DNA of 35,435 nt, taken from contig WALT01000021.1 of NCBI GenBank assembly GCA_015522695.1, positions 1 through 35,435 of the forward strand. The letters are read 5' to 3'. This stretch comes from Nitrososphaerota archaeon (lineage in GTDB: Archaea; Thermoproteota; Nitrososphaeria; Conexivisphaerales; Conexivisphaeraceae). Shown piece after piece: positions 2,998-9,328 of this stretch; the stretch's first letter is position 1; each line of letters begins with the position of its first letter. The translations under genes and the position numbers were made by a program. Under the pieces are notes generated by a model, which did no database searches, was not told the origin of the DNA, and saw only the letters and a program-made list of their open reading frames with translations.

Positions 2998-3390
2998 TCA
3001 TTCCACTGGACAGGCTATCGGAACGAATTTCAGCCTGCAATGCTTGGTGGCCATCAAGGCCTTGTGCAGCTCGGTAACCTTCTGGGAGGGGCCGGAGACC
3101 ACTATTGTCTCCACGCACTCACCCCCGACGTGGGAGTGGTTGTAGCTCCTGACCATATCCCTGAACTTCCTTAGGGCACCGTAGACGCTTGGATCGTCCT
3201 CGCTTCCCGTGAGTACGAACACTCCTCGACACTGATGTGGTGAGAGATAATGTAGGTTCTCCTGGACGAACAGGCTCAGGGCCTCGCTCACGACCCTGCT
3301 CCTGTCCGAGCCAAGGATCGATGCCAATCTATCGAGGCTCTCCGCTAGCTCCTTCGGGATTGCCACCCCAAACCTCCTCTTCCTGACCAT
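2998..3390 (-). CDS. NikR-like ribbon-helix-helix metal-responsive regulator
   Basis: A 130-residue CopG/NikR-family transcription regulator. Residues 1-45 are the ribbon-helix-helix DNA-binding domain (RRFGVAIPKEL strand and two helices), and residues 55-130 are the ACT-like metal-sensing domain. The metal-site region reads NHSHVGGEC, giving H85, H87 and C92. In E. coli NikR the ligands are H87, H89 and C95, so the spacing from the second His to Cys is one residue shorter here. The C-terminal end has two further cysteines (C118, C127). The ATG has a GAGGTGA Shine-Dalgarno and begins 7 bp after the transporter gene ends, so it is co-transcribed and probably represses it when metal is replete. 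The metal could be Ni, Zn or Mn. Confidence 0.8.
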   Translation of the reverse strand: MVRKRRFGVAIPKELAESLDRLASILGSDRSRVVSEALSLFVQENLHYLSPHQCRGVFVLTGSEDDPSVYGALRKFRDMVRSYNHSHVGGECVETIVVSGPSQKVTELHKALMATKHCRLKFVPIACPVE

Positions 3391-3397
3391 CCATCGA

Positions 3398-5077
3398 TCA
3401 CCTCTTAACGGCCAGGCCGACGGCGTAGACCGCGGTCAACAGAAGGCCGGCGGCTGCAGCGGGTGCTTGATTAAGCACGACCGCGGCGTAAAGCCCAGCC
3501 AGGCTAGCGGCCAAGCTGACGGTTAAGCTGATGAGCAGGGCGTTGCGAGCACTTCCAGCGATCGTCACTGCTATTGCCGAGGGCAGCAATATCAACACAT
3601 GCTCCAAGACGAACCCGACTATCCTTATCAGGGCTACTGTGGTTAGCGCCAGCAGGGTGAACACGAGCCAGTCGTAGACCTCGACCCTGACACCGCTGAG
3701 CCTAGCTCCATCCCTGTCGACCCCCAGACACACGTTCTCCCTATGCGTGAGGAGTGTGAGCGCTAGGACCACAGCTGCTATCGCCGCTGCGTAGATGGCG
3801 TCGCTCCAGCTCGCGAGGAGAGGATCGCCGACTATCATCGCCCATACATTGGACTCCATCGGGAAACTCGTGAGCACATAATATATCGCCATGACGCTGG
3901 CGGATGCTGTGAACGCGACGAAGACAGCCGTGGCGGTGTCGGAATCCACGCCTTTATATATCATGTAACCCACGATGTAGGCCAGGATCAAACCAGCTAG
4001 TACAGCCCATGTGTGTTCATCCAAGATCCCTAGAAGCCTTGACGCTGGTATGGCGGCCACAGCCGCCAATAGCGCAGCATGAGGTGAGGCCCCTGCCAGG
4101 AAGTAGAGCCTACGCGCAGCTATCAGAGGGCTCAGGGCTCCATATGCGAGCGCAGCTGCAACCATGACCACGAGCCATCTCAAATCGAGAGGGATTGCTG
4201 CAACAGCCCGTCTGTGGGTTCCTGTGGTCGCCCTAGCTCCCACGGCTATGCTCTCGAGCTTCTCCGGTACGCTCTGCTCACCTATCGGTGAAGGCAACAT
4301 GAGCACGGATATTCCGTACTCTTTAGCGTACTCGAGAAGCTGTTGAGAGGCCTTGAGCTTGGCTGGTTCCGTGACTATGGCAAGGCGGATCGTGCCCGAT
4401 TCCATAGCGGATATTATCCTCCCCACGTCCACTGGCGTCGCGGGAACCCCATGCTCCTTGATCATCAGGTATTCGACCTTGATTCCAAGCCAGGAGACGG
4501 CGTACTGGGACATGGGGGTATCGGCGACTGCTACGACCTTGAACCTGGGAGCAGCCGCTGTTATCGAATCCACCTTCCTGATAATCTCTGCCATCCTGCT
4601 CCCATAGCTCTGGGCACATTCGGGCCTGATCTCCTCGAGGACCCCTGCCATGTATTCGATGAACGTCTTATAGTTCGATGGATCATATATCGGCATGTGA
4701 TAATTCAGGTTCCCGGTCTCAGGGTTCTCCAGAAGCCTCATGCCAGGGAGATCGGGCATCTCGACGAGCCGTGCCTTGATCTCACCAGATGATACGAGCT
4801 CCCTTATCTTCATCTCGAACGATGTGTGAGCGGTGGACACGATGACATCTGCCGATCTGAGCTTCTCCACATCCGCCGGGGTCAACTGGTAGTTGTGCGG
4901 ATCCACGCCAGGAGGTGCTACACTGTCGATGCTATCACCATCACATAGCAACGGCTTCACGTCATGGATGAGGTTATGGAAGGTCACGACCACCTTGACC
5001 CCTCTAGAGCCGGCCGTGGCGGAGGTGGCCAGGAGCAATGCCAGGAGCAATGCCAGGAGCGGTAGAGCCCTCCACAA
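3398..5077 (-). CDS. Metal ABC importer: substrate-binding protein fused to permease
   Basis: A 559-residue protein that joins two normally separate subunits of a Zn/Mn-type ABC importer. Residues 1-22 are a signal or anchor segment. Residues 27-285 are a cluster A-I (ZnuA/PsaA-like) binding protein: H61 in GVDPHNY, H127 in NYHMP, and E209 or E237 match the metal-ligand positions. Residues about 298-559 are an ABC-3 permease with roughly seven to eight membrane spans and the motif LAGASPHAALL. The reading frame is continuous across the joint. The only in-frame start is a TTG at 5077, preceded by GAGGGG and 13 bp downstream of an in-frame stop. The signal peptide is encoded by a 15-bp tandem repeat. 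It shares a promoter region with the divergent ATPase gene and is followed by the NikR-like gene. Confidence 0.85.
   Translation of the reverse strand: MWRALPLLALLLALLLATSATAGSRGVKVVVTFHNLIHDVKPLLCDGDSIDSVAPPGVDPHNYQLTPADVEKLRSADVIVSTAHTSFEMKIRELVSSGEIKARLVEMPDLPGMRLLENPETGNLNYHMPIYDPSNYKTFIEYMAGVLEEIRPECAQSYGSRMAEIIRKVDSITAAAPRFKVVAVADTPMSQYAVSWLGIKVEYLMIKEHGVPATPVDVGRIISAMESGTIRLAIVTEPAKLKASQQLLEYAKEYGISVLMLPSPIGEQSVPEKLESIAVGARATTGTHRRAVAAIPLDLRWLVVMVAAALAYGALSPLIAARRLYFLAGASPHAALLAAVAAIPASRLLGILDEHTWAVLAGLILAYIVGYMIYKGVDSDTATAVFVAFTASASVMAIYYVLTSFPMESNVWAMIVGDPLLASWSDAIYAAAIAAVVLALTLLTHRENVCLGVDRDGARLSGVRVEVYDWLVFTLLALTTVALIRIVGFVLEHVLILLPSAIAVTIAGSARNALLISLTVSLAASLAGLYAAVVLNQAPAAAAGLLLTAVYAVGLAVKR
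5032..5061. repeat. 15-bp tandem repeat encoding the signal-peptide core
   Basis: About two and a half copies of a 15-bp unit (containing CCAGGAGCAATG) lie in the first codons of the fused transporter gene. On the minus strand they encode the repeating Leu/Ala hydrophobic core of the signal sequence (LLALLLALLLA). Gain or loss of a unit would change the length by five residues without a frameshift. Confidence 0.8.
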
Positions 5078-5096
5078 AGTCGCCCCTCAGAGTGTA

Positions 5097-5118
5097 CACA
5101 ATCCTTATAAGGATTGTG
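5097..5118. promoter_or_regulatory. Perfect 22-bp palindromic operator with central TATA, divergent promoter
   Basis: The half-site CACAATCCTTA is followed at once by its exact reverse complement, so the centre reads TTATAA, a TATA box on both strands. The centre (5107.5) is about 30 bp from each flanking start: TTG at 5077 on the minus strand and ATG at 5137 on the plus strand. This is the normal TATA-to-start distance in this window. A single symmetrical element therefore appears to drive both transporter transcripts, and a dimeric regulator bound there would occlude TBP. The nearby NikR-like protein is the natural candidate. TGTGCACA at 5126-5133 is a second small palindrome just downstream. 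Confidence 0.75.
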
Positions 5119-5136
5119 CATATAATGTGCACACTG

Positions 5137-5913
5137 ATGGATGCACATAGCCTGGAGGTCGAGGGACTGACGGCGGGATATGGAGGGGAACTGGTGATAG
5201 AGAAAGTCAGCTTTCGTCTCGAGGGACCTCAGCTGGCCCAGATATTGGGTCCGAACGGTGCAGGGAAGACCACGTTGATAAAGGCGATCCTGGGCTTGAT
5301 GGAACCAATTTCCGGGCGGGTGATCGTGGACGGCGTCGATATCACGGGGGACCCCAAGGGGGCTGGGCCTATCGTCGGATATGTGCCACAGCTGTTCGGT
5401 TTAGAGCAGGCGAAGTATCCGGTGACGGCATGGGAGCTCGTGGAGTCATCCTATTTCATGCACAGGAGCAGATGGCCCAGGCTATTCTCGAGCGATGAGG
5501 TGAAGGCCAAAATAGAGAAGGCCCTCAAGATCGTAGGACTCGACGAGGAAGCCTGGAGGAAGAGCCTGTGGAACCTATCCGGTGGACAGAGGCAACGCGT
5601 ACTCTTAGCGAGGGCGATCGTCCACGATCCTCCCGTCCTGATCCTGGACGAGCCTCTATCGGCGGTCGATCCATCCGGAAGGGCTGAGATAGCCTCGTTC
5701 ATAGGCTCCTTGGCCGATGAGAAGCTCGTGCTCGTGTCGACGCATGACCCGATGTTGTTACTAAGACATACGAGGACGGTCATATTGGTGAACAAGAGGT
5801 TCTACGCCGTGGGCAGCCCGGATGAGGTCCTTAAGCTCGAGGTTCTAAGCCGCGTATACGCCGGTGCAGCGATACAGGTGCGTGAGCATGTTCATATATC
5901 AGACATGCCATAA
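5137..5913 (+). CDS. Metal ABC transporter ATP-binding protein
   Basis: A 258-residue ABC ATPase that would energise the fused binding-protein/permease encoded divergently. Visible motifs are Walker A GPNGAGKTT near residue 38, the Q-loop in GYVPQLF, the signature LSGGQRQR, Walker B LILDEPLSAVD and the switch histidine in STHDP, all as in ZnuC/MntB-type subunits. The open frame runs upstream to 5038 across the operator, so I chose ATG 5137 because it lies about 30 bp from the TATA centre; ATG 5125 is possible. It is separated from its permease by transcription direction but shares the same operator. Positions 5319-5361 are duplicated exactly in the next gene. Confidence 0.88.
   Translation: MDAHSLEVEGLTAGYGGELVIEKVSFRLEGPQLAQILGPNGAGKTTLIKAILGLMEPISGRVIVDGVDITGDPKGAGPIVGYVPQLFGLEQAKYPVTAWELVESSYFMHRSRWPRLFSSDEVKAKIEKALKIVGLDEEAWRKSLWNLSGGQRQRVLLARAIVHDPPVLILDEPLSAVDPSGRAEIASFIGSLADEKLVLVSTHDPMLLLRHTRTVILVNKRFYAVGSPDEVLKLEVLSRVYAGAAIQVREHVHISDMP
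5319..5361 (+). repeat. 43-bp exact direct repeat, copy 1 (inside ATPase gene)
   Basis: This segment of the ATPase coding sequence, encoding residues around VIVDGVDITGDPKG, recurs without mismatch at 5971-6013. It fits the ABC family here, so this copy is the likely source. Confidence 0.95.
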
Positions 5914-5961: not shown

Positions 5962-6447
5962 ATGAGCGATGGTGATCGTGGACGGCGTCGATATCACGGG
6001 GGACCCCAAGGGGATGAAAGCGGGAAGGTCGTCACGATCAGGGGGCTGAACGAGGAGCTCTACAGGAGGGCTGCGGCGCTAGCTAAGACGACCGGCAGGA
6101 CCGTGGGCGAGGTGATGAACGAGGCGATCGAGCTCGTGCTGAACGTGGGCGAGGCTGCGTTATCTCCCTTCGTCAAGCCAGGCGAACATGAGGGGAAGAC
6201 AATCGAGGTTTCCGGGCTGGAGGAGCTCAAGATATCCAAGGAGGACCTCGAAGGCTTGGGCGAGGACGAGAAGGTGGTTTTCCGGGGGTTGAGGAGGCTC
6301 GAGATCGAGGAGGATGTACCCTATAGATACTTCGAGGGGAAGGTCGCTGCGATAGTCTCATGCGATGAAGTGATCTTGCCGAAAGGTTATCCGAAGCTCA
6401 AGGTCGCCGCCAGAATGCAGGGGATAAAGGATCTGAAGATAGGTTAG
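5962..6447 (+). CDS. Ribbon-helix-helix protein with unknown C-terminal domain and a transplanted N-terminus
   Basis: A 161-residue protein. Residues 22-58 form an RHH-like unit (KVVTIRGLNEELYRRAAAL, then a second helix TVGEVMNEAIELVL), suggesting DNA binding. Residues 70-161 are a beta-rich region with recurring short Leu/Ile strand patterns (LEELKI, LRRLEI, IKDLKI) and one CDE; I do not recognise it. Residues 4-18 (GDRGRRRYHGGPQGD) are encoded by a 43-bp exact copy of the upstream ATPase gene read in another frame, so this basic tail is probably recent. No other in-frame start exists before the RHH strand, and the TATA spacing supports ATG 5962. It sits 48 bp after the transporter ATPase, which suggests a role in the same metal response. 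Confidence 0.6.
   Translation: MSDGDRGRRRYHGGPQGDESGKVVTIRGLNEELYRRAAALAKTTGRTVGEVMNEAIELVLNVGEAALSPFVKPGEHEGKTIEVSGLEELKISKEDLEGLGEDEKVVFRGLRRLEIEEDVPYRYFEGKVAAIVSCDEVILPKGYPKLKVAARMQGIKDLKIG
5971..6013 (+). repeat. 43-bp exact direct repeat, copy 2 (5' end of RHH gene)
   Basis: Identical to 5319-5361, 652 bp upstream. Here the segment is read in a different frame and encodes a basic Gly/Arg-rich tail ahead of the RHH strand. Flanking bases differ on both sides, so the copied unit is sharply bounded. Confidence 0.95.
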
Positions 6448-6935
6448 TCCTCCTGCTTCTCGATCCTCCAGATGAGTCCCTTCACGGGCCAGAGATCCGT
6501 GGAGATCGATTTCAGCTCCTCTAGTGCCCTCTTCTCTAGACCTTTATTCCTCCTTCCCCTCTGCCTATGGACCAAGGCCGCGAGGCCCAGCAATATTGCA
6601 TGCAGCACCACCTTCTTCTCTCCCTCCTCCCTTCTCCAGAGCTCCTCCAATGTCTCGTAGGCCTCCCATACCCTGTCCTCCCCGTAATAATCGAGCGCCT
6701 TGGCGATGGGTTCCTCCGGCATCTCCCCCACCTCGATCGTCCTCCTCCACGCAGGTTCCCCCAACAGCTCGGCGAGCATCCTCTCACCCTCCTCTTGGCC
6801 GCCAACGATAACATCGATCTCTATCCATCTGCGAGTGAGCCTGACGTCGACTACTCTCATGTCCTGTATCTTCTTCACCTCATCCCTCAGGTCTGGCCTC
6901 CATCTGTCCTTAGGATAGCCCAGGAGGAGCCTCAT
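6444..6935 (-). CDS. DUF309-family protein
   Basis: A 163-residue protein. The C-terminal half carries the DUF309 pattern: a helix with YYGEDRVWEAYETLEELWRR, then KVVLHAILLGLAALVH and a basic GRRNKGLEKRA. Proteins of this family are small, helical and of unknown function. The N-terminal 65 residues are a separate alpha/beta piece. The frame is open further upstream, but the ATG at 6935 overlaps the stop of the preceding oxidoreductase gene by the classic 4-bp ATGA, so translation is probably coupled and this start is well supported. The stop overlaps the end of the convergent RHH gene by 4 bp. Confidence 0.75.
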   Translation of the reverse strand: MRLLLGYPKDRWRPDLRDEVKKIQDMRVVDVRLTRRWIEIDVIVGGQEEGERMLAELLGEPAWRRTIEVGEMPEEPIAKALDYYGEDRVWEAYETLEELWRREEGEKKVVLHAILLGLAALVHRQRGRRNKGLEKRALEELKSISTDLWPVKGLIWRIEKQED

Positions 6936-8392
6936 CTGGCCTGCACCTTCAGTCTCCTTTCCCTGCGCCTTTCCTCGACGAGGGCCGCTAGATGTTCCTT
7001 GAACCCTTCCCACTCCTCGGGCTCCCTCAAATCGTAGAATGCCCTCTCGATCACCTCGTTCACGGCCGGGTGTATATGCATACCCCAGAACACCGGCATC
7101 GCGGATCCATCCCTCGTGTACATGAGCATCACCGCCTCGTGTATCATCGAGGACGCATATGGGCCTATCGCATGAGCTCCCAGTATCCTGAAAGTATCCT
7201 TCTCAACTATCACCTTCGCGAAATGGTGCTCGGACTTCATGGCGAGTCCCTTCGCCGTATCCTTATAGGGACAGTAGCCCACGAGTATATCATGTCCCCT
7301 CCTGGCTTCCTCCTCACCCACCCCGACGGCCGCGACCTCCGGCTGCACGAATATCGCATGTGGAACTGCACTATAGTCGACCTTGACCTTCCGACCGTGG
7401 AAGGCGTTGTAGAAGACGATCTGGCTCTCGTAGTTGGCTACGTGTTTGAACATATACTTTCCTATCGCATCGCCACAAGCCCAGATGTTCGGCTTCGTCG
7501 TCTCGAGGTATTCATCGACCATTATCCAACCATCTCTATCCGTCCTCACGCCGGTCTTCTCCGGTTTCGTGATATCGGAGTTGCTCTTCCTTCCAGCAGC
7601 GACGATTATCTCGTCCGCCTCAACCTCCACGGTCTCCCTGCTCTTCATGTCCTCCGCCACAAGTACCTTCATGCCGTTCTTCCTTCTAGCCTCCACGACC
7701 CTGTGATTGACCCTGATATCCATGAACTCTCCGAGTTCATATTCTAAGAGGTGGGATATCTCCGGCTCCTCTGTGCTCACCACCCTCGGCAACATCTCGA
7801 GCACTGTGACCCTAGAACCCATCATGGCTAGAAAGAAGCCGAGCTCCATAGCTATGTAGCCTCCTCCTATTATAGCGACGCTCCTGGGTAACCTCCTGAG
7901 CTTGAAGAAGTTCTCGTTCGTGATGTAGCCGACCTCCTCCAGCCCTGGTATCGGTGGGATCAGAGGTCTCGAGCCCGTGCACAGCAATATCTTATCTCCC
8001 CTTATCAGTTCATCTCCGGACTTCACCGTGTACTCGTCGACGAACTCGCCCGTGGTCTGATAGAGATCTATCCTCGGGTCACCCCTTATGTTCTCCTCTA
8101 TAGTCCTGCTCTCGCCCATGACGTCCTCGTATGCCCACTCCATTATCCTGGCGAAATCTATCTTCTTAACTTGAATGTCCATCCAGAACCTGTTGGCCTG
8201 TCTGGATGTATGCACTATCTCGGCCGGATATAACAACATCTTCGATGGTATGCAACCCCTAGTCAAACATATACCCCCTATAGGTCCGTTCTCGATCACA
8301 GCTACCCTCAGATCTGGGTTCATCGAAATGGCCTCTGCGACTATGTTCATGGCGGAGCCTGTGCCGAAGGCGATGACGTCATAATATCTCAT
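6932..8392 (-). CDS. Class I flavin disulfide oxidoreductase (mercuric/mycothione reductase- or lipoamide dehydrogenase-like)
   Basis: A 486-residue FAD-dependent pyridine nucleotide-disulfide oxidoreductase. The redox cysteines are C42 and C47 in GGICLTRGCIPSK. The N-terminal dinucleotide motif is the variant FGTGSAMN, and the second nucleotide fold has IIGGGYIAMELG near 175. ACGDAIG is the second FAD motif, and the C-terminal HIHPAVNEV supplies the catalytic His and its partner Glu. Length is normal. No lipoyl or 2-oxoacid dehydrogenase subunits lie nearby, so a reductase of a small disulfide or another electron acceptor is as likely as lipoamide dehydrogenase. It overlaps the DUF309 gene by 4 bp. 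A GC-rich hairpin lies 8 bp upstream of the start. Confidence 0.82.
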   Translation of the reverse strand: MRYYDVIAFGTGSAMNIVAEAISMNPDLRVAVIENGPIGGICLTRGCIPSKMLLYPAEIVHTSRQANRFWMDIQVKKIDFARIMEWAYEDVMGESRTIEENIRGDPRIDLYQTTGEFVDEYTVKSGDELIRGDKILLCTGSRPLIPPIPGLEEVGYITNENFFKLRRLPRSVAIIGGGYIAMELGFFLAMMGSRVTVLEMLPRVVSTEEPEISHLLEYELGEFMDIRVNHRVVEARRKNGMKVLVAEDMKSRETVEVEADEIIVAAGRKSNSDITKPEKTGVRTDRDGWIMVDEYLETTKPNIWACGDAIGKYMFKHVANYESQIVFYNAFHGRKVKVDYSAVPHAIFVQPEVAAVGVGEEEARRGHDILVGYCPYKDTAKGLAMKSEHHFAKVIVEKDTFRILGAHAIGPYASSMIHEAVMLMYTRDGSAMPVFWGMHIHPAVNEVIERAFYDLREPEEWEGFKEHLAALVEERRRERRLKVQAR

Positions 8393-8542: not shown

Positions 8543-9328
8543 ATGGGGATGATCAGCTACAGGCCAGGGGCCAAGTTATATTGTTTCATCGTCCGAGGAC
8601 GGAATAAGCCGGGAGGAGGTTCTAGGGTCCTTGGGGTGTTGGCGAAGGCGGGAGCCAACGTCATCTGGATGCACATGGAGCTCCTCGATGAAGGCACGTA
8701 CTATGCCCTCATAACGGCCGATATTTCATCGGCCACAATAGGCCCTGGGGGAGTTGCTAAAATGCTAGAGGAGGAAGAGGACGTCGAGACTGCGGTAGTT
8801 AGCCCCTCTTTGTTCGAGAATGCCGCAATGCCATGTTGGTGGTTTCCCGTGATGGTCGGGGATGAGAGGGCGATCGTGGTGAGGGAAACCGTCGTCGAGA
8901 AGATGGGTGAGAACATGGAGAGGATGTTCGGATCGCCCGCCTGGGCTGCACTCCTATACCATAGCGGCCATGAATTCGGTAGGGCATCATATAAGGACCT
9001 CATGAGGCGGCTTGCCCCGAACATGGCGAGGTCGAATGCGATAATGGAGATGGCCGAGCTGTTGGGCTCAAGGCTCGGATTCGGGCTGATCAAGGTCGTA
9101 TATATGGATTTAGATGTTAAAAGGTTTATAGTAAGGGTGAAGAGGATGTTCGAGTGTGAGGTAGCCAGAAAACGAGGCATCAAGGGTAAAACGAGCCAGT
9201 TCTTCCGTGGAGTAGTATCGGGATGGTTATCCGAGTACGCGGGCGAGGACATCTCCTGTGAGGAGGTCATGTGTATTAACGTCGGTGATCCACATTGCGA
9301 GTTCGATTGTCGGCCTGCTCACAGGTGA
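8543..9328 (+). CDS. ACT domain plus V4R (4-vinyl reductase-type) domain protein
   Basis: A 261-residue predicted cytosolic ligand-binding protein. Residues 8-85 resemble an ACT domain (KLYCFIVRGRNKPGGGSRV, then GVLAKAGANVIWMH). Residues about 115-258 look like a V4R domain, ending in the typical cysteine-rich segment ISCEEVMCINVGDPHCEFDC; the cysteines probably bind zinc. V4R domains are small-molecule sensors, found in bacteriochlorophyll enzymes and in archaeal regulators. There is no DNA-binding or enzymatic domain. An in-frame stop near 8517 limits the start to ATG 8543 or 8549. TTTTATA at 8456-8462 may be the promoter. Ligand unknown. Confidence 0.7.
   Translation: MGMISYRPGAKLYCFIVRGRNKPGGGSRVLGVLAKAGANVIWMHMELLDEGTYYALITADISSATIGPGGVAKMLEEEEDVETAVVSPSLFENAAMPCWWFPVMVGDERAIVVRETVVEKMGENMERMFGSPAWAALLYHSGHEFGRASYKDLMRRLAPNMARSNAIMEMAELLGSRLGFGLIKVVYMDLDVKRFIVRVKRMFECEVARKRGIKGKTSQFFRGVVSGWLSEYAGEDISCEEVMCINVGDPHCEFDCRPAHR

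Follow-up and report, generated by a model that had tools for sequence, protein, structure and literature searches.

The stretch of DNA analysed here (the window) comprises 35,435 nucleotides of contig WALT01000021.1 from a Nitrososphaerota archaeon. On its minus strand, positions 5077 to 3398 form one uninterrupted ORF that opens with a TTG codon and encodes 559 aa, with a divergent ATPase gene on one side and a regulator gene on the other (Table 1). A first-pass annotation of the same sequence had read this ORF as a ZnuA/PsaA-like binding domain continuing in frame into an ABC-3 permease, and the profile and structural results bear that reading out. PF01297 (ZnuA) matched residues 29-261 at 69 bits, against a cut-off of 29, and PF00950 (ABC-3) matched residues 302-557 at 81.4 bits, against a cut-off of 20.1 (both Pfam). 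The AlphaFold2 model of the chain, built from an 83-row alignment, contains two confident domains; its mean pLDDT is 94.2 and falls below 50 only at residues 290-294.

Table 1. Features of the fused importer locus, in coordinates of the window
Feature	Position	Strand	Evidence
Fused binding protein-permease, 559 aa, TTG start	3398..5077	-	ORF, Pfam, AlphaFold2
Signal peptide, residues ~1-23, without lipobox cysteine	5009..5077	-	Sequence; modelled helix 5-19; lipobox scan
ZnuA/TroA-type substrate-binding domain, residues ~28-291, terminal helix 270-291	4205..4996	-	Pfam, AlphaFold2, Foldseek
Linker region, residues ~286-298 (~13 residues), low-confidence 290-294, no transmembrane helix	4184..4222	-	Linker comparison, AlphaFold2
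ABC-3 permease core, residues ~299-558, nine long helices, short helix 455-460 at coupling-helix position	3404..4183	-	Pfam, AlphaFold2, Foldseek
ATP-binding protein of importer, divergent; start at 5137, or in frame at 5125	5137..5913	+	ORF, Pfam, NCBIfam, locus comparison
NikR-like ribbon-helix-helix regulator, 130 aa, directly downstream of fused gene	2998..3390	-	ORF, Pfam, NCBIfam, locus comparison
Predicted operator site 1, TGTGCACA	5126..5133	.	Site counts, shuffles
Predicted operator site 2, TGTGTACA on minus strand, 33 bp from site 1	5093..5100	.	Site counts, shuffles
Perfect 22-bp palindrome CACAATCCTTATAAGGATTGTG, centre = symmetric TATA-like element	5097..5118	.	Palindrome search

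The modelled N-terminal half consists of a signal helix (residues 5-19) and a two-lobed receptor that ends in helix 270-291. The permease half is modelled as helices at residues 299-321, 325-349, 354-374, 379-404 and 424-453, a short helix at 455-460, and further helices at 465-487, 489-506, 510-535 and 539-558. Foldseek matched the binding domain to YfeA, FpvC and ZnuA, and the permease to PsaC of PsaBC (7kyp/7kyo) with target TM-scores of 0.74-0.83. The placement of the two domains relative to each other is uncertain (pTM 0.65). The locus has the features by which a cluster A-I importer is recognised, namely a PF01297 receptor with the TroA/ZnuA fold, a PF00950 permease and a cognate ATPase alongside. 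The NCBIfam equivalogs for the Znu, Azt, Slo and Mnt systems gave weak matches to the fused protein, far under their cut-offs (19-42 bits against 268-525), and by these scores it falls under none of ZnuABC, MntABC, SloABC or AztABC. The fused protein is the sole ABC-3 permease recovered by a whole-genome search of the window genome, in which a search for a ZIP transporter found none.

Scanning 84,980 genomes with the family alignment identified 65 loci from Desulfurococcales, Pyrodictiaceae, Thermofilaceae, genomes labelled Sulfolobales, Archaeoglobaceae and, more distantly, Thermococcus. A four-part module of ATPase, binding protein, permease and NikR-like regulator occurs in about 60 archaeal loci; nearly all loci that are sufficiently complete have the four parts. 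The order of ATPase gene, then binding protein, permease and regulator, is kept in nearly all complete loci, and the ATPase gene is mostly divergent from the binding-protein gene, the window included. In NCBIfam the window ATPase comes closest to the MntA and AztA types, without reaching their cut-offs. Most relatives encode binding protein and permease in separate genes, which commonly overlap by 4 bp, in line with the earlier premise that the two are normally separate. Beyond the module itself, a search around the family loci found no conserved gene that would point to a particular metal. Loci L064, L070-L072, L076, L079, L082, L083, L085 and L095 are rearranged, with ATPase, permease and regulator on one strand and the binding protein divergent, so that a receptor-permease fusion is impossible there. 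The Thermococcus binding proteins at L109-L116 are akin to the family, and no family permease or regulator was detected near them.

Since relatives mostly carry two overlapping genes, a small indel could join such a pair, and the window assembly is a draft of 34 contigs; a single frame might thus be an assembly or sequencing artefact merging two genes that overlap by 4 bp. We regard this as exceedingly improbable. The junction in the window is no simple join, because the hydrophobic anchor and the additional helix found at the corresponding ends of split relatives (see below) are both gone, and two other fused loci (L053 and L055) share this short form. Altogether seven other fused loci come from other, independent assemblies, among them L037 (= G364), which lies on a contig of 1.84 Mb. 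Three genomes of the same family encode the neighbouring radical-SAM protein at 70-72% identity, and the contig is therefore native to the organism. These related fusions and this neighbour gene argue against both an artefact and a foreign contig.

The single-ORF fusions of the family comprise the window and L037, L053, L054, L055, L056, L058 and L067. Concatenated receptor-permease alignments of 53-55 rows, eight of them fused, were used to place these on a tree, as the first-pass annotation had suggested for archaeal ZnuA and ABC-3 fusions. The fused or split state changes at least six times on this tree, and an arrangement with all eight fused rows in a single clade was rejected (p-AU 2.6e-5). 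Together these results indicate that fusion arose repeatedly. Branch support is patchy and several branches are weak, which leaves the precise number of fusion events uncertain; our claim from the tree is that the fusion has recurred in the family, by repeated origin, and not a particular count. Running a fusion profile over 398 genomes of the phylum brought out a second fused group (families II and III; L013-L035 and L034), with 13 single-ORF receptor-permease proteins of 554-600 aa. Its permeases group in a clade of their own (99% SH-aLRT), distant from the window family. A PF01297 survey of the class returned no fusions among the best-scoring proteins listed, all of which were split.

The second group shares with the window family the receptor-permease order in one ORF. 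Unlike that family, most of its members are without the histidine of the receptor DPH motif, and no NikR-like neighbour was found beside them. At L013, L019, L020, L026-L032, L035 and L051 this histidine is mostly gone (RHAS or GVNL, for example, in place of DPH) and the fused ABC-3 permease is kept; proteins of the group that have lost the histidine may bind a wholly different ligand. The protein at L034 (1456-3246) is fused, has canonical-looking ligands (DPH, DPHVW, SHDAF) and branches at the base of the group, of which it is possibly the ancestral form.

The split members of the window family suggest how a fused chain could be accommodated in the membrane. A hydrophobic C-terminal tail, usually followed by basic residues, is present in 32 of 46 split binding proteins, and many split permeases have an additional hydrophobic helix ahead of the core. 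Joining two such genes would yield, in order, the receptor, a helix running out to in, a basic loop, a helix running in to out, and the permease core. Linkers with two helices are found at L054, L056 and L058 and, in the alignment, also at L040/L067. Both helices are absent from the window, L053, L055 and L037, where a short linker leads from the receptor straight into the core. The modelled core has five helices ahead of the coupling-helix position. In MntC of B. anthracis, residues 1-20 lie in the extracellular region (PMC11779740) and the N-terminal helix is at the membrane-extracellular interface (PMC8487065). By analogy with that protein, the model suggests that the permease core starts outside, with the same orientation whether both linker helices are present or neither. 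An outside start of the ABC-3 core, five helices before the cytoplasmic coupling helix, would make the fusion topologically workable. The receptor's anchor and the permease's extra helix would cancel each other, a fusion keeping both or, as in the window, dropping both.

The first-pass annotation had also supposed that fusion removes the need for a lipid anchor, and this part does not hold. A lipobox-like pattern was found in 5 of 53 family members, some of these badly placed or spurious; with 48 of the 53 negative and hydrophobic tails common in the split binding proteins, lipid anchoring of the receptor was rejected. The linker also bears on whether the chain stays whole. It is short, flexible and of low confidence at residues 290-294, and split versions are the common state in the same family, as would suit a protein that is translated as one chain and then cut at the linker into an ordinary separate binding protein and permease. 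However, no cleavage motif was identified in the linker, and several fused relatives keep two membrane helices there, holding the parts together regardless; we think processing of this kind improbable, and take the intact fused chain to be the working form.

The metal-site residues of the family depart from those of characterised relatives. H61 and H127, which had been picked out in the binding domain at first pass, are the two lobe-1 histidines of the receptor and are conserved in 97-100% of the family. The third and fourth ligand positions are not conserved: residue 186 is D, E, S, V, T or A, 187 varies, and 262 is Pro. H84, E88, N125, Q191, Y192 and W196 are nearly invariant in family receptors. 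In the permease, the essential Asp-His-Asp triad of MntC (Asp47, His51 and Asp94; PMC8487065) has as its counterparts G329, H333 and D380 in the window protein. The first triad Asp (Asp46/47 of PsaC/MntC) is replaced family-wide by Gly, Ala or Ser, and the His and second Asp are kept. H493 is invariant in the family, where most members have E or Q at 492, and may stand in for the missing Asp. The window protein thus has neither the canonical four-residue receptor site nor the Asp-His-Asp permease triad. Judged by the protein families, transition-metal import appears to be the likely function; with some ligands of characterised relatives missing, the cargo may be another metal or a metal complex. 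Import of a metal-chelate (a metallophore or thiolate complex) instead of the bare ion would suit a binding protein in which the lobe-2 ligands are not conserved whereas H84, E88, Q191, Y192 and W196 are. We consider it unlikely, as the receptor keeps its two lobe-1 histidines, the permease keeps titratable residues, and the nearest solved receptors bind bare ions.

The regulator directly downstream has a NikR_C domain (33.1 bits against a Pfam cut-off of 22), but at about 25 bits it reaches none of the NikR equivalogs of NCBIfam (cut-offs 83-175). Its H85, H87 and C92 align with NikR H87, H89 and C95 and are conserved in 98-100% of aligned members. The NikR ligand H76 has no counterpart in family regulators, which instead carry H52-x-C54, nearly invariant and new with respect to NikR. 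Judged by its sequence, the regulator is NikR-like only, with neither an equivalog-level score nor the full His3Cys nickel site.

The choice of metal is a matter of judgement and not of computation. Zinc is our leading guess, held with slightly less than even confidence, and is favoured because it is universally needed, the fused protein is the sole ABC-3 importer in the genome, and no ZIP transporter was found there. Nickel or cobalt would come next, at distinctly lower weight, and the rest goes to other metals. A variant of the preferred model has nickel (or cobalt) as the imported metal in place of zinc, manganese or iron, and assigns nickel sensing to the NikR-like protein. It can appeal to the three retained residues, which are three of the four nickel ligands of E. 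coli NikR, to PF00374 matches in 24 of 26 genomes (counted among module-bearing genomes only), and to a 2009 survey in which few nickel importers were known from Thermoproteales and Desulfurococcales (PMC2667541). Its weaknesses are that PF00374 has no match in the window's own genome, which is 95.5% complete, that the fourth NikR ligand is absent from a regulator with its own H52-x-C54, and that this regulator scores below the NikR equivalog cut-offs. Nor is PF00374 specific, since it also matches complex I-type relatives. We view the nickel variant as possible but doubtful; with the PF00374 evidence missing from the window genome and the family unspecific, nickel as a settled substrate was rejected as unproven. 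Equally tentative is a broader proposal, that these loci constitute a distinct archaeal cluster A-I subfamily with an altered receptor and permease metal site, a cargo metal outside the usual Zn/Mn/Fe set (nickel or cobalt), a novel type of NikR-like sensor that acts on an operator of its own, and an architecture that has repeatedly become single-chain.

The intergenic region between the divergent genes contains a candidate operator. In the window, two TGTGCACA-type sites flank a TATA-like element that lies about 30 bp from both divergent start codons, which suggests that one element drives both genes. Exact TGTGCACA occurs upstream of the binding-protein gene at 47 of 59 loci, against 0.24 in shuffles, and site pairs spaced 32-34 bp apart (at most one mismatch each) occur in 46 of the 59 upstream regions, against 0.01 in shuffles. 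These regions make up 2% of the DNA and hold 64 of the 69 exact TGTGCACA copies found in all loci. The pair is the predicted operator of the NikR-like regulator; a literature search on TGTGCACA operators found nothing relevant. The pair pattern has a single occurrence in the window genome, at the module promoter, and a wider regulon of operator copies was rejected. A role of the 22-bp palindrome as operator was also rejected: this sequence is peculiar to the window, where it has no second match even with three mismatches allowed, and the conserved elements are the TGTGCACA sites that overlap and flank it.

Within the order of the window organism the family is narrowly distributed: the window genome alone among 20 genomes carries it, and the weaker matches in the others are ordinary split homologues. 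In G001, a genome of the same family, the homologues of window genes 1055-2638, 2658-2951 and 6932-8392 are direct neighbours, and about 300 bp occupy the place that the module and two small genes take up in the window. An empty site in this genome implies that the module was probably acquired, and the simplest reading is that it was gained by transfer from a Desulfurococcales-like source; loss from the sister genus is a possible alternative. The stretch absent from G001 includes the genes at 5962-6447 (161 aa, no Pfam match) and 6444-7013 (DUF309). Further along, the protein encoded at 8543-9328 has a C-terminal V4R domain and an apparent N-terminal ACT-like part, and is possibly a small-molecule-sensing regulator. 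The first-pass annotation had concentrated on the fusion, and missed the conserved module of regulator, operator and ATPase, the altered metal-site residues and the insertion at a conserved locus.

Taking these observations together, we consider it highly probable that the locus encodes a cluster A-I-type (ZnuABC/MntABC-like) importer of a divalent transition metal whose receptor is the N-terminal domain of its permease. The working unit would comprise two fused chains and two copies of the divergently encoded ATPase. This agrees with the earlier expectation of one receptor per permease chain and two per homodimer, which we infer to be right. In each chain a short flexible linker would tether the receptor domain outside the membrane. 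Only one of the two receptors would be engaged at any moment: it would close around a metal ion, dock on the homodimeric permease and hand the ion over to a path formed by H333, D380 and H493, with ATP as the driving force. The NikR-like protein would bind the two TGTGCACA sites astride the TATA-like element and control both divergent genes; bound there, a repressor could block both promoters.

Fusions of receptor and permease are known for other importers, and we found none described for this class of metal importer. That search covered the open-access literature, and prior cataloguing is possible. The earlier remark that no described cluster A-I fusion was known stands to that extent, although the fusion is not isolated: it recurs within the family and again in the distant second group. 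Fusion has happened repeatedly here, split and fused versions of one module exist alongside each other, and the linkers are of two kinds; this makes the effects of tethering on affinity, stoichiometry and retention testable, in cells that seemingly do without lipid anchoring of the receptor. Metal sensing could likewise be probed through the conserved regulator and the operator predicted for it, in archaea that are mostly uncultivated and whose metal uptake is poorly known.

The window regulator has in common with NikR the ribbon-helix-helix and NikR_C domains and the ligands H87, H89 and C95, but is without H76, has an extra H-x-C and lies below all equivalog cut-offs. Its predicted operator, a TGTGCACA pair with sites 32-34 bp apart, is arranged unlike the E. 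coli nik operator. The cluster A-I systems PsaABC, MntABC, ZnuABC and AztABC share with the window family the PF01297 receptor, the PF00950 permease, the ATPase type and the predicted folds. The family differs from them in the replacement of Asp46/47 by Gly, Ala or Ser, the invariant H493, the unconserved third and fourth receptor ligands and the NikR-like regulator, and the window protein in the fusion of receptor to permease. Fusion as such is found elsewhere among ABC importers, as had been noted at first pass; OpuA and GlnPQ are examples. In OpuF and EgtUBC, too, the receptor is covalently tied to the transmembrane domain (PMC9732360). These importers are of other classes with other substrates, and EgtUBC has its receptor at the C-terminus as opposed to the N-terminus in the window protein.
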